A stretch of DNA of 7,179 nucleotides from Chloroflexota bacterium. Lineage in GTDB: Bacteria > Chloroflexota > Limnocylindria > QHBO01. The notes under the pieces are model-generated. The model saw only the letters and a list, made by a program, of their open reading frames with translations. It did not search any database and was not told where the DNA came from. Location: NCBI GenBank assembly GCA_019348395.1, contig JAHWJN010000066.1:1-7179 (forward strand), written 5' to 3'. Positions 2,708 to 6,333 of the stretch are shown here, in pieces. How positions within the stretch are numbered: the stretch's first letter is position 1; each line of letters starts with the position of its first letter. A program made the translations under genes and the position numbers.

Positions 2708-3214
2708 ATGCGCCGTTACGAGCTCATGCTGCTGCTCCGTCCGGACCTGGAGGACGACAAGCTCCAGGCTTCGGTGGAGAAGGTCACCCGCGCCATCGTC
2801 AATGCCGGCGGGGCGCTCAGCAAGGTTTCCCCGTGGGGCAAGCGCCGGCTCGCCTATGACATCGGCCGTCACCGCGAGGCCAGCTATTTCCTCATCCACT
2901 TCGACATCGAGCCGTCACAGATCCGCGAGATCGAGCGCGGAATGCTCATCACCGAGGAGATCATGCGTCACCTCGTGACCGTGCTCGAGGATCGCGGCCC
3001 CGCCGAGGAGCTGCCGCCGGCCGCCGCTCCGCGAGCAGCGGCGAGCGATGACGGTGGCGGTGAGATCGATGCGGAGGACGACACCTCCGACGACACGAGC
3101 GATGACACCTCCGACGACACGAGCGAGGATACGAGCCACGACGAGGCCGTTGGCGAACCCGATGCCGGAACCCCCGACGAGCCGGCCGCCGACGAGGAGC
3201 GCACGGAGGGCTGA
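2708..3214 (+). CDS. rpsF: 30S ribosomal protein S6 with acidic C-terminal tail
   Basis: S6 binds the central domain of 16S rRNA as a heterodimer with S18, whose gene lies two genes downstream. Residues 1-96 are a standard S6 fold: MRRYELMLLLRPDL at the start, KVSPWGKRRLAYDIGRHREA in the middle (WGKRRLAY is characteristic) and a final helix and strand ITEEIMRHLVTVLE. The protein is 168 residues, against about 95-135 for most S6. The extra roughly 70 residues form an Ala/Pro linker and a very acidic tail with five DDTS-type tetrapeptides (124-143). ATG 2708 is chosen because AGGAGG (2691-2696) precedes it and the S6 fold begins exactly there; frames extending upstream run through the leader. 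The gap to ssb is 25 bases, so they are co-transcribed. Acidic tails occur in other S6 proteins (E. coli S6 is glutamylated at its C-terminus), but this tail's role is unknown. Confidence 0.97.
   Translation: MRRYELMLLLRPDLEDDKLQASVEKVTRAIVNAGGALSKVSPWGKRRLAYDIGRHREASYFLIHFDIEPSQIREIERGMLITEEIMRHLVTVLEDRGPAEELPPAAAPRAAASDDGGGEIDAEDDTSDDTSDDTSDDTSEDTSHDEAVGEPDAGTPDEPAADEERTEG
3077..3136 (+). repeat. In-frame 12-bp tandem repeat (DDTS units) in rpsF
   Basis: Five consecutive 12-base units encode DDTS, DDTS, DDTS, DDTS and EDTS. At a larger scale, 3077-3100 and 3101-3124 are 24-base copies that differ at a single position (GAC/GAT). The near identity at DNA level, including alternating Thr/Ser codon choice (ACC TCC, then ACG AGC), points to recent tandem duplication and possible length variation between strains. 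Confidence 0.9.
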
Positions 3215-4067: not shown

Positions 4068-4877
4068 ATGCCCACCGAGCTGCTGCTGATCCTCAGCGGA
4101 CTCGTCGCCGGCACATTCGGCGCGATGCTGGGGCTGGGTGGTGGGCTCCTCATCGTCCCGATCCTGACCCTCGGCTTCGGAGCTCCGATCACCACGGCGG
4201 TCGGGACGAGCCTGGTGTGCGTGATCGCCACCTCGACCGGCGCCGCCGCGCTCAACGTGCGCGCCGGCCGCGCCGACGTCCGGCTCGGGATCACGCTGGG
4301 CGCGGCAACCGTGGTCGGTGCGGCGAGCGGCGGCATCCTTGCCGGCATCCTGCCGGAGCGGACGCTGGCCGGGCTCTTCGCGGCCCTGCTGGCGTACACC
4401 TCTTATACGATGCTCCGTGGCCTGCGCGGCGCCTCCGTGGAGCGACACCCCGGATCCGAGCCGGATCCGACGGCGCCCGACGGTCCCGGCGCACCCCTAT
4501 ACCGCACCCACCGGCTGCCGCTGGCCTGGGCCGGCTCGCTTGTCGCGGGTCACGCCTCGGGCCTGCTCGGCGTCGGTGGTGGCATCGTCAGCGTCCCGTT
4601 GATTCGAATGCTGATGGGGGCGCCGATGCGCGTCGCGGTGGCGACCTCGAACTTCATGATCGGCATCACCGCCGCTGCGGGGGCCGCAGCCTACCTGTTC
4701 CGCGGGGAGATCGATCCGCGCCAGGCCGCACCGGTGGTGATCGGCGTGACCATGGGGGCTGCCCTGGGAGCCGGAATCGCCGCGCGGATTCGGCCGGCGT
4801 GGCTCTCCGGGATCTTCGTGGTGGTCGTCGCCTACGTCGCGGTCCGCATGGTCCTGCGCGCGGCGGGCCTCGAATGA
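4068..4877 (+). CDS. TauE/SafE-family anion (sulfite) exporter
   Basis: A polytopic inner-membrane protein of 269 residues, the usual length of the TauE/SafE family, whose known members move sulfite, sulfoacetate or related organosulfur anions. It is an internal duplication. The first half opens with TFGAMLGLGGGLLIVPIL (about 16-33). The second repeats the motif as SGLLGVGGGIVSVPLI (164-179). These paired LGxGGG re-entrant segments are the family hallmark. Hydrophobic segments lie at about 5-32, 40-62, 75-95, 99-115, 152-178, 187-210, 221-240 and 246-264. A polar, Pro-rich loop (about 122-148) joins the halves. No Shine-Dalgarno sequence is evident before ATG 4068. The stop overlaps the next start (ATGA), so the two are translationally coupled. 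The substrate cannot be read from the sequence; no sulfur-metabolism gene is nearby. Confidence 0.92.
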   Translation: MPTELLLILSGLVAGTFGAMLGLGGGLLIVPILTLGFGAPITTAVGTSLVCVIATSTGAAALNVRAGRADVRLGITLGAATVVGAASGGILAGILPERTLAGLFAALLAYTSYTMLRGLRGASVERHPGSEPDPTAPDGPGAPLYRTHRLPLAWAGSLVAGHASGLLGVGGGIVSVPLIRMLMGAPMRVAVATSNFMIGITAAAGAAAYLFRGEIDPRQAAPVVIGVTMGAALGAGIAARIRPAWLSGIFVVVVAYVAVRMVLRAAGLE

Positions 4878-5224
4878 GCGAGGGAGGCCCGAGCCGCCGC
4901 CTCGGCACCCGGATCGCGATGATCCTCCGCACCGGGACGCTCCTTGCCGTGGCCATGGTGAGCGCGGGATTCGTCCTCTCGCTCGCCGCCGGCGGGGAGG
5001 GTCCCGGCGCCCGACCGATCGGCGACCTCCTGGCGGTGGGCGGGGCGGATGCGCTCACCACCGCCGGCCTCCTGGCGCTCACCATGCTGCCGCTCGCGGT
5101 GCTCGTCGTCGCGGCGGTCACCTTCGCGGCGGAGCGGGAGCGGCGCTACCTGTTGTCCAGCCTCGCGACGCTTGCCCTGCTCGTTGCCGGGCTGGTCGCA
5201 ACGGCGCTGCTGACGGCGAGTTGA
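4874..5224 (+). CDS. DUF1634 membrane protein
   Basis: A 116-residue protein with three predicted membrane segments: about 15-39 (MILRTGTLLAVAMVSAGFVL), 61-86 and 92-115. A short polar loop after the first contains GEGPGARPIGDLLAVG. Size, three-helix layout and position directly after a TauE/SafE gene match DUF1634, a family of unknown function usually found as this neighbour. The start ATG 4874 overlaps the TauE stop by four bases (ATGA), the classic coupling arrangement. Longer frames read upstream through TauE are shadows. The likely role is as an accessory subunit or partner of the exporter, inferred from linkage only. Its TGA stop lies inside the TTGACG that may be the -35 box of the downstream riboswitch promoter. 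Confidence 0.85.
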   Translation: MSEGGPSRRLGTRIAMILRTGTLLAVAMVSAGFVLSLAAGGEGPGARPIGDLLAVGGADALTTAGLLALTMLPLAVLVVAAVTFAAERERRYLLSSLATLALLVAGLVATALLTAS

Positions 5225-5250
5225 CGTGGTGGCGCGGCAGCGGCGACACT
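5221..5250 (+). promoter_or_regulatory. Candidate promoter of the riboswitch-terC transcript
   Basis: TTGACG (5221-5226, five of six to the -35 consensus) is followed after 18 bases by GACACT (5245-5250, a weak -10). Transcription would begin around 5257, immediately before the P1 helix of the riboswitch at 5259. That placement is what makes the otherwise weak -10 credible. The -35 box overlaps the stop codon of the DUF1634 gene. Confidence 0.42.
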
Positions 5251-5258
5251 CCCCGGGC

Positions 5259-5362
5259 CCGAGGGGGAGTACCCCACCGAGGTGTCATCGTCAGGACGGC
5301 GGCCGCATGAGCCGCCCGGTGGCATCGGCCGATGCACACGCTGGGTCGGGAGAGACCTTCGG
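5259..5362 (+). promoter_or_regulatory. yybP-ykoY manganese riboswitch
   Basis: This 161-base gap carries the two hallmark blocks of the yybP-ykoY family (Mn2+-sensing): GGGGAGTA at 5264-5271 and GAGACCTTCG at 5352-5361. P1 forms between CCGAGGG (5259-5265) and CCTTCGG (5356-5362), seven pairs with one G-U. Inside, CCACCG (5274-5279) pairs with CGGTGG (5317-5322), and a coaxial hairpin GGCGGC/GCCGCC (5298-5303 with 5311-5316) follows. A further CCGA/TCGG pairing (5329-5332 with 5346-5349) can close the second arm next to the GAGACC block. The next gene is TerC, one of the classic targets of this riboswitch (for example E. coli alx). The sequence blocks, the P1 pairing and the gene context agree; the exact inner fold is less sure. 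Confidence 0.9.
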
Positions 5363-5390
5363 CACGTCGCTGTGGAGATTCCTGCGTGCC
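5361..5390 (+). promoter_or_regulatory. Start-codon sequestering hairpin (expression platform)
   Basis: GGCACG (5361-5366) pairs perfectly with CGTGCC (5385-5390), which contains the GTG start (5386-5388) of terC; the GGAG ribosome binding site (5374-5377) is in the 18-base loop. G5361 and G5362 are also the last two bases of riboswitch P1, so P1 and this hairpin compete. When Mn2+ holds P1, the start should be freed, predicting translation on with manganese. Confidence 0.68.
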
Positions 5391-6333
5391 TGACTACGTC
5401 TCGTGGATCATCTTCGTCGTCGCCGTCGGCGGCCTGCTCTCGCTCGACCTGTTCGTCTTCCACCGCGAGGCCAAGCCGGTGCGCATGCGCGAGGCGGCCA
5501 TCTGGGTCGGTGTGTGGGTCAGCCTCGGGCTCGCCTTCGGCGGCTGGATCTTCCTGACCCGGGGCGCGACGAGTGGCGCGGAGTATCTGGCCGGCTATCT
5601 CATCGAGTACTCGCTCTCGATGGACAACGTCTTCGTCTTCGCCGTCCTGTTCGCCTATTTCGGCGTCCCGCCGCAGTACCAGCATCGGCTCCTGTTCTGG
5701 GGCGTGATGGGCGCCATCGTGTTTCGGGCCATCTTCATCGTGGCCGGGACGGCGCTGCTGAGCACCTTCCACTTCGTGATCTACCTCTTCGGCGCGCTGC
5801 TGCTGTTCACCGCGTGGCGGATGGTGACCGTCGGCACCGACAACGTCGATCCCGGCGCGAACCCGGTGCTCCGCCTCATGCGGCGTGCCATCCCGGTCAC
5901 CGACGACTTCGAGGGACAGAAGTTCTTCACCCGCCGGGACGGCAAGCTGTGGGCGACGCCGCTGTTCGCGGCGCTGGTCGTGGTGGAGACGAGCGACATC
6001 ATGTTCGCGATCGACAGCGTGCCGGCCATCCTCGCCATCACCCAGGACACCTTCATCGTCTTCACCTCGAACGCGTTCGCGATCATGGGCCTCCGGTCCC
6101 TCTACTTTCTGCTCGCCGGCCTCATCGATCGATTCGAGTACCTGAAGTACGGGCTCGCCGCGCTGCTCGCCTTCGCGGGGCTGAAGATGATCCTGAGCGA
6201 TGTGATCCACCTCGATGTGTGGCTCTCGCTCGGCATCATCGTCGCGATCCTCGCCACCTCGGTCGCGATTTCGCTCCTCGCGACGCGGCACCGCGACGTC
6301 CCCGAACGCACGCCGCCACCGATGAACGACTGA
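5386..6333 (+). CDS. TerC-family membrane protein, likely Mn2+ exporter
   Basis: A 315-residue integral membrane protein of the TerC/Alx family. Characterised members (Alx of E. coli, MeeF/MeeY of Bacillus) export manganese; older links are to tellurite resistance. Family motifs: LSMDNVFVF (77-85) and ETSDIMFAIDSVPAI (201-215), both with membrane-embedded acidic residues suited to metal binding, plus FTSNAFAIMGLRSLYFLL (226-243). About eight to nine hydrophobic segments occur: near 6-25, 37-57, 70-92, 102-122, 128-146, 190-215, 222-246, 254-272 and 278-300. A cytoplasmic-looking loop at 148-188 is charged. GTG 5386 is chosen because GGAG (5374-5377) lies eight bases upstream and the family starts with this first helix; an ATG at 5332 would lie inside the riboswitch. 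Regulation is expected from the riboswitch and its start-codon hairpin. The length is normal and the motifs are intact. Confidence 0.94.
   Translation: MPDYVSWIIFVVAVGGLLSLDLFVFHREAKPVRMREAAIWVGVWVSLGLAFGGWIFLTRGATSGAEYLAGYLIEYSLSMDNVFVFAVLFAYFGVPPQYQHRLLFWGVMGAIVFRAIFIVAGTALLSTFHFVIYLFGALLLFTAWRMVTVGTDNVDPGANPVLRLMRRAIPVTDDFEGQKFFTRRDGKLWATPLFAALVVVETSDIMFAIDSVPAILAITQDTFIVFTSNAFAIMGLRSLYFLLAGLIDRFEYLKYGLAALLAFAGLKMILSDVIHLDVWLSLGIIVAILATSVAISLLATRHRDVPERTPPPMND

Follow-up and report, generated by a model that had tools for sequence, protein, structure and literature searches.

The terC locus and its leader

The window analysed here is a stretch of 7,179 nucleotides from a Chloroflexota bacterium (assembly GCA_019348395.1, contig JAHWJN010000066.1), and all positions are counted from its first letter. 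It carries a tRNA-Leu (TAA) gene at 943-1026 and, directly 5' of the terC leader, a TauE/SafE exporter gene (4068-4874) that overlaps a DUF1634 gene (4868-5221). The assignment of the gene downstream of the leader to TerC, made in a preliminary description from the sequence alone, agrees with the Pfam match listed in Table 1, and the TerC proteins of three leader-bearing Chloroflexota contigs (L006, L008 and L009) are 77-85% identical to the one encoded here.

Putative promoter elements lie in front of the leader, from which the RNA would begin near 5257, at the base of helix P1. As a strict sigma-70 consensus scan does not detect this promoter in the window, it is counted as inferred. Directly 5' of the aptamer, TTGAC, a spacer of 17-18 bases and [GC]ACACT are found in six of the seven leaders L086-L092 (L086 and L088-L092), and the promoter-like elements of L087 are TTGACA and CACACA, 16 bases apart. 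An upstream ACTCCCC/GGGGAGT hairpin that might sequester L1 was considered and, on reading, rejected: the stretch forms part of the region of the predicted -10 element, and L087 does not retain it.

Table 1. Coordinates of the terC gene, its predicted promoter, the aptamer and the expression platform in the window
Feature	Position	Strand	Remarks
terC, predicted Mn2+ exporter (TerC family)	5386..6333	+	GTG start 5386; PF03741, E 2.1e-54
Predicted -35, TTGACG	5221..5226	+	overlaps stop codon of upstream DUF1634 gene
Predicted -10, GACACT	5245..5250	+	18-base spacer
P1 (switch helix) 5' strand, CCGAGGG	5259..5265	+	alignment A2, pair counts
L1 signature, GGGGAGTA	5264..5271	+	identical in 30/30 rows of A2; first two Gs also pair in P1
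P1.2 5' strand, CCC	5273..5275	+	98.9% of cells paired; both-side changes in all three pairs
P3.1 5' strand, GGTGTCATCG	5281..5290	+	10 bp helix; both-side changes in 8/10 pairs
L3 bulge, TCAGGAC, 7 bases	5291..5297	+	CA at these positions in 30/30 rows of A2, E. coli alx included
P3.2 5' strand, GGCGGC	5298..5303	+	pair counts
P3.2 3' strand, GCCGCC	5311..5316	+	pair counts
P3.1 3' strand, CGGTGGCATC	5317..5326	+	pair counts
P4 5' strand, GGCC	5327..5330	+	pair counts
P4 3' strand, GGTC	5344..5347	+	pair counts
P1.2 3' strand, GGG	5348..5350	+	pair counts
L1 3' side, AGAGA	5351..5355	+	
P1 3' strand, CCTTCGG	5356..5362	+	common to aptamer and expression platform; alignment, pair counts
Anti-start hairpin 5' arm, GGCACGT	5361..5367	+	
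Shine-Dalgarno, GGAG	5374..5377	+	also pairs weakly with P1 strand
Anti-start hairpin 3' arm, GCGTGCC	5384..5390	+	contains GTG start 5386-5388

Structure of the aptamer

The helices P1, P1.2, P3.1, P3.2 and P4, together with the invariant letters of L1 and L3, are established by comparison of the aligned sequences. P1 (CCGAGGG/CCUUCGG, 7 pairs) is adjoined by the L1 signature GGGGAGUA, which stands opposite an AGAGACC-type 3' side (window 5264-5271 and 5351-5357) and is present in all 30 aligned sequences. Measured on the 30-row alignment, which was fitted to a related structure so that pair and covariation measures lean towards that structure, 22 of the 30 pairs of the aptamer helices changed on both sides compared with 13.4 in shuffles, 93.6% of cells were paired compared with 76.2% in shuffles and 30-51% in slid controls, and the covariation score was 0.483 compared with 0.173, a value reached by none of 500 shuffles. 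This covariation, and the recovery of the E. coli alx leader described below, uphold the proposal that a yybP-ykoY-type aptamer lies directly ahead of terC.

The 7-base L3 bulge is found also in E. coli alx (UCAUUAC) and mntP (ACAUACU). A5293 of L3 is the likely Mn2+-contacting adenosine and would be the counterpart of A48/A41 of the crystal structures (PMC6754395). The aptamers of X. oryzae and L. lactis (PMC6754395, PMC11087558) share with the window a P1.1 switch helix, L1-L3 docking and a conserved adenosine; according to these papers, Mn2+ stabilises P1.1 and the conserved adenosine is needed. They differ from the window in their junction, which is four-way there and three-way here.

The window and the 29 other aligned leaders, alx included, have 3-7 bases between P1.2 and P3.1, which leaves no room for a P2 helix. 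P2, which we take to be the fourth helix of the X. oryzae and L. lactis junction, is not defining for all yybP-ykoY members, because alx also does without it. The P2-less architecture with its three-way junction was therefore rejected as a novelty, E. coli alx having the same layout. A P2-like hairpin was seen by eye in 5 of the 23 phylum loci read (L157 and L161-L164).

The aptamer resembles that of E. coli alx: neither has P2, both place P1.2 next to L1 GGGGAGUA, and both have a long P3.1, a 7-base L3 with CA and a TerC-family gene downstream. E. coli mntP follows the same L1 and L3 logic as the window but has a P2 hairpin (by eye) and a gene of a different family behind it. The RNA of the window is thus a divergent member of a known Mn2+ switch family, not a new kind of switch.

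Covariance-model searches and distribution

The preliminary description had looked to the Rfam model RF00080 for confirmation, and this was not obtained: RF00080 gave no match in the window at E 1, and none on the leader alone even at E 10. Nor did it match in the window's own genome (59% complete) or across seven further loci. In 177 genomes of the class no match exceeded the cut-off, while 24 sub-cut-off matches (E up to 1) were found in 22 genomes. Among 20 further class loci a single leader was matched, that of L103, at the place found also by the model R1 described below and sub-threshold at 20.1 bits (E 0.19 among the class loci, 9e-4 when the stretch was searched alone). On E. coli mntP the model scored 41.6 bits, just below its cut-off of 45, and on the E. 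coli alx leader (L113:6372-6502) it gave no match at E 1. The alx leader is reported to be Mn-sensing (PMC9603457). Since this positive control was also missed, the silence of RF00080 was rejected as evidence for or against the aptamer. The model seems blind to the alx-type branch, and as RF00080 overlooks this branch of Mn2+ riboswitches, alx included, their numbers have likely been under-counted, at least in Chloroflexota. RF00080-type motifs are counted in a Chloroflexi paper (PMC3766115). Among the literature matches listed, no title or abstract describes this Chloroflexota branch.

Two models were built from the sequences themselves, both without P2, which biases what they find. R1 was made from six terC leaders (the window, L008, L006, L009, L050 and L011), with alx excluded. 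It finds the E. coli alx leader, absent from its training, at E 1.1e-5, and mntP weakly at E 0.07. In the class it identifies 27 places in 23 of the 177 genomes, 4 of the 27 being training members. R2 is a refined model of 30 sequences, alx among them, in which a P3.1 of 10 pairs replaces the 7-pair P3.1 of R1; it matches mntP weakly (25.9 bits, E 8e-4). R2 identifies 32 places in 27 of the 177 class genomes. In a sample of 400 genomes from the phylum it identifies 41 places, which belong to 37 genomes, 29 of them outside the class and 8 within it. Because no more than 10 to 22 first-look candidates were scored in each genome, these scans may have missed some places.

The motif is visible by eye 5' of terC in relatives of the window. 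In the window's family, a TerC match is found in 5 of 22 genomes, three of which carry the leader (G000, G012 and G015), and the other two (G003, G020) lack the aptamer. The L1 signature together with a GACC-type pattern occurs in 6 of 80 TerC loci (L006, L008-L011 and L050). Since some genomes and loci with TerC have no leader, terC and the aptamer do not always go together. One genome of another family, f2, carries the leader together with a terC whose protein is about 80% identical to that of the window (L087/L009, G100:C163), a case of transfer or of mis-binning.

Genes behind the leaders

Gene context was read for 57 leaders, 31 from the class, 23 from the phylum, L050 and two in L011, with near-duplicates kept. 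Proteins from the window, from four loci and from E. coli alx served as tblastn references, and a match was accepted within 1.4 kb. A transporter-family match lies behind 47 of the 57 leaders; TerC accounts for 24 of them, the short TerC-like protein of L154 for 5, GDT1 for 9, P-type ATPase for 5 and Na/Ca exchanger for 4. Forty-two of the matches start no farther than about 150 bases from the aptamer, and the five more distant ones belong to L110, L138, L140, L159 and L163, that of L140 being weak. Pfam assigned ten chosen genes to TerC (3), Na_Ca_ex (3), GDT1 (2) and P-type cation ATPase (2); the Na_Ca_ex gene of L142 had been overlooked by tblastn. No transporter-family match was found by these searches for nine of the 57 leaders (L105, L147, L148, L151, L157, L160, L161, L164 and the second of L011).

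In this poorly studied phylum the same RNA precedes genes of four transporter families. GDT1 presumably corresponds to the TMEM165/MneA family, and yrbG, on the same kind of assumption, to the Na/Ca exchangers. According to PMC13274385, TerC and the TMEM165-family protein MneA of Vibrio parahaemolyticus are Mn2+ exporters downstream of yybP-ykoY, and yrbG is under a yybP-ykoY switch in V. vulnificus. Judged from the sequence matches, the aptamer in the relatives sits before families that include Mn2+ exporters.

That most downstream genes belong to such families (PMC13274385 for TerC and MneA), and that L1 and the CA of L3 are invariant in all 30 aligned sequences, both argue against a drift of the aptamer to another signal, either another metal or the pH to which the alx leader was first described as responding (PMC3874183). 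That early description of alx and the position of the aptamer beyond the reach of RF00080 would favour such a drift, which is nevertheless judged very improbable.

Three loci show individual features. L011, a Thermoleophilia contig, has a second aptamer of the same type (3071-3166) just 3' of terC and ahead of another gene. In L105 the aptamer precedes an open frame that by eye resembles a zinc-ribbon protein, not a transporter family. The terC frame behind the aptamer of L101 seems to have an in-frame stop near its start, either a sequencing error or a sign of a decayed gene.

Expression platform of the window

Several particulars of the preliminary description are borne out by the coordinates. 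The hairpin GGCACG (5361-5366)/CGTGCC (5385-5390), extended by one U5367-G5384 pair, encloses the GTG start codon. G5361 and G5362 belong to both P1 and the hairpin, an overlap of two base pairs. P1 ends at 5362, with 23 bases between it and the GTG, and a scan of 5150-5420 turned up nothing that resembles a terminator with a T-run. The Shine-Dalgarno (SD) sequence can pair with the P1 strand as well, in a helix of 5 bp including G-U pairs between CUUCG 5357-5361 and UGGAG 5373-5377. This complementarity is among the six weakest of the 54 leaders compared below, and the P1 arm of the window pairs with its own downstream sequence no better than with that of other leaders.

The folding energy of the hairpin is ordinary: its -11.5 kcal/mol is equalled or bettered by 21% of 2000 shuffles and by 58% of the 40-base segments sampled from this DNA at steps of 5 bases. 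As it does no better than shuffles, folding energy was rejected as evidence. A stem of six Watson-Crick pairs that touches both the P1 strand and the SD or start codon is uncommon, occurring in 0.7% of 3000 shuffles; with seven pairs and G-U allowed, the same placed stem occurs in 9%.

Whether P1 and the hairpin exclude each other depends on how the RNA is folded. The inner 5 bp of P1 can coexist with the hairpin at -54.8 kcal/mol, compared with -55.1 for full P1. One OFF fold adds a pairing between GAGAC 5352-5356 and GUCUC 5398-5402, the latter in terC codons, and reaches -59.5 compared with -55.1; this pairing would make the P1 and hairpin states exclusive. A longer fold into the gene drops this pairing, and the OFF-ON difference shrinks to -1.7 kcal/mol. 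When less of the gene is folded and the 5' strand of P1 is kept unpaired, the difference turns from -4.4 to +4.4 kcal/mol. The sign of the OFF-ON difference in the window therefore depends on the coding length folded and on the constraint.

Folding with and without P1, which the preliminary description had proposed as a check, agrees with it for the start codon. With the aptamer body forced (longer fold), the accessibility of the start is 0.31 when P1 is forced and 0.03 when it is unforced, and every constrained fold shows such a drop at the start when P1 is left free. The SD behaves the other way, with 0.14 when P1 is forced and 0.58 when it is not, opposite to what an SD switch would give, and the energy sign is inconsistent. 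The start-codon hairpin as a control element is plausible but unproven. A degenerate platform with terC expressed constitutively is the least probable of the alternatives considered: the window ranks among the weakest of the 54 leaders in pairing of the P1 strand with downstream sequence and its folding robustly favours neither state, but the letters and helices of the aptamer are intact and the loss of start accessibility without forced P1 recurs across the constrained folds.

The three nearest leaders, L089, L087 and L086, with TerC proteins respectively 85%, 80% and 76-77% identical to that of the window, keep the aptamer but by eye lack the GGCACG/CGTGCC pairing. Conservation of this pairing in close relatives, on which the preliminary description had staked its hairpin, is thus not found. 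By eye, the three offer instead CGGCC/GGCCG, CGGCCU/AGGCCG and CGG.UCC/GGA..CCG, with the SD involved. In folds, the start of L089 is buried without P1 (0.01 compared with 0.66), L087 changes little (start 0.71 compared with 0.78, SD 0.20 compared with 0.11), and L086 retains P1 (0.98) and shows no change at all. The replacement hairpins are a reading and not a result, with which folding agrees only in part.

The absence of the pairing from these three leaders, together with the ordinary energy of the hairpin, would fit an incidental hairpin beside a real aptamer, with control relying on the weaker helix between 5357-5361 and 5373-5377, as in most relatives. Across the leaders the P1 strand commonly pairs with the SD region (31 of 54 by the simple rule given below). 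This alternative is considered unlikely, in view of the rarity of a six-Watson-Crick stem so placed and of the mere 5 bp, G-U pairs included, that the window offers between P1 and SD.

Expression platforms of the relatives

The relation between P1 and the sequence behind it was examined in 54 leaders: 28 from the class (the near-duplicates L097, L098 and L104 having been dropped), 23 phylum loci, L050 and two in L011. L010 (Rubrobacter, terminator type), E. coli, the class hit G090:C3 and phylum hits without a fetched locus were left out of this set. All comparisons with permuted downstream sequences ignore shared ancestry; the 54 leaders have 17 distinct 7-base arms, and 27 leaders share one of them. 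With this proviso, the duplex between the 3' strand of P1 and the downstream sequence of the same leader has a mean energy of -18.1 kcal/mol compared with -14.3 (sd 0.34) for permuted partners, and none of 10000 permutations is as low; for the two strands of P1 themselves the same test gives -10.2 compared with -8.7, again with 0 of 10000. In 44 of the 54 leaders the P1 3' strand can form 8 or more consecutive pairs, G-U included, with the downstream sequence, compared with 26.8 (sd 2.5, maximum 35) after permutation and 9.1 with shuffled downstream sequence. With the limit lowered to 6 bp, true and permuted partners are not told apart (48 of the 54 leaders compared with 45.5 permuted). By a simple rule, a helix of at least 6 bp covers the SD with the start codon behind it in 31 of the 54, L153 and L161 being doubtful. 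At the level of sequence, then, the P1 3' strand is complementary to its own downstream region beyond permuted partners, most often to the SD region.

All three strands (P1 5' strand, P1 3' strand and downstream strand) change together: CUGAGG/CCUUCAGCU/AGCUGGAGG in L144, GUAGAGG/CCUCUACUCG/CGAGUGGAGG in L155, GGAGG/CCUCCUGAUCA/UGAUCAGGAGG in L050 and UAGAGG/CCUCUAUGCGG/CCGCAUGGAGG in L159. Chloroflexota leaders such as L093, L094, L142 and L144 have the same aptamer as the window, stand before TerC or Na/Ca-exchanger genes and likewise use a P1 strand common to aptamer and platform. In these leaders 10-13 bp form between the P1 3' strand and the SD region, with a T-rich stretch behind this helix in L142 and L144, whereas the hairpin of the window starts at the last two bases of P1 and buries the GTG. 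The window had been put forward as a clean minimal example, which it is not, given the two-pair overlap and the lack of its hairpin pairing in the nearest leaders; cleaner examples are relatives such as L093 and L094, whose P1 3' strand itself forms 10-12 bp with the SD region.

Folding of P1-forced and P1-free leaders without holding the aptamer body proved uninformative in such GC-rich RNA and was replaced by folds with the body forced. In the longer of these, with the body held and P1 unforced, 22 of 27 leaders show a drop in the accessibility of the SD or start (two of 29 having been set aside for want of an identified SD and start, and alx left out); L086, L087, L091, L103 and L110 do not show the switch. 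P1 is disfavoured without ligand in 25 of these 27. The shorter body-held fold gives a less accessible SD or start without P1 in 25 of 28, alx included. Mutual exclusion of P1 and sequestration of the ribosome-binding site, supported across the relatives by the complementarity of the P1 strand and by the 22 of 27, is marginal in the folds of the window with its two-pair overlap and is not seen in those of L086 and L087.

By a loose rule, 9 of the 44 leaders with such an 8-bp helix carry T-rich sequence behind it (L101, L142-L144, L147, L151, L153, L155 and L163), so that termination and SD burial are indistinguishable in some leaders. By eye, the P1 3' strand of L153, L164 and L010 (Rubrobacter) seems to be part of an intrinsic terminator that ends in a T-run, and the type of platform appears to change between lineages. 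The L. lactis leader also controls an intrinsic terminator (PMC6754395 and PMC11087558), which the window does not have.

Such lability, with the terminator-like L153 and L164 and the nine T-rich leaders, would speak for a switch that acts mainly through premature transcription termination, Rho-dependent in the window, with effects on translation secondary. The action of mntP against Rho points the same way: PMC11647493 describes mntP as a Mn2+ on-switch that acts both on translation initiation and against Rho, with a leader of 229 bases. The absence of an intrinsic terminator from the window, and the covering of SD and start in the 31 of 54 leaders (simple rule, L153 and L161 doubtful), point instead to initiation, and a mechanism chiefly of termination is regarded as rather improbable.

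Regulatory model

For the window, an alx-type Mn2+ aptamer ahead of terC that acts as a translational on-switch, P1 closure freeing the start from the hairpin, is considered the probable reading. Mn2+ binding would hold P1 closed in the leader 5259-5390, an aptamer of the alx subtype; P1 closure would release the terC start from the competing hairpin, and translation of the probable Mn2+ exporter would likely be switched on. That Mn2+ is the ligand, that control acts on translation and that the switch turns terC on are inferences. The on-switch proposed in the preliminary description thus stands as the most likely logic, qualified by the two shared pairs and the near-equal energy of the coexisting fold. 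The least certain step is whether closure of P1 suffices to open the hairpin.

The platform of the window can be set beside that of E. coli alx, whose P1 3' strand can pair over 9 bp with the bases that immediately follow. The alx leader, which controls translation (PMC3874183), is much longer, with the start about 80 bases behind P1 compared with 23 bases here, and its anti-P1 hairpin falls short of the SD. In the lineage of the window the competing helix seems to have slid downstream: the P1 strand would pair with the SD only weakly (5 bp), and its last two bases would instead begin a hairpin of 6-7 bp that buries the GTG.

A wider reading takes the Chloroflexota leaders as a branch invisible to RF00080, in which the P1 3' strand serves both as one half of the aptamer and as an anti-SD strand, kept in these two roles by covariation across three strands, and in which the helix of the window has slid from the SD to the start codon, a platform caught while being rebuilt. 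This is offered tentatively, its probability being put a little short of even. The 54 leaders provide a direct way to test the trade of a strand between aptamer and ribosome-binding site.

A further form of platform occurs in L103, L111, L138, L139 and L140, four of them before GDT1-type genes. These leaders have a strong anti-P1 hairpin of the CCUUCGAC/GUCGAAGG type, which lies tens of bases 5' of the start and resembles alx, not the SD-burying form.
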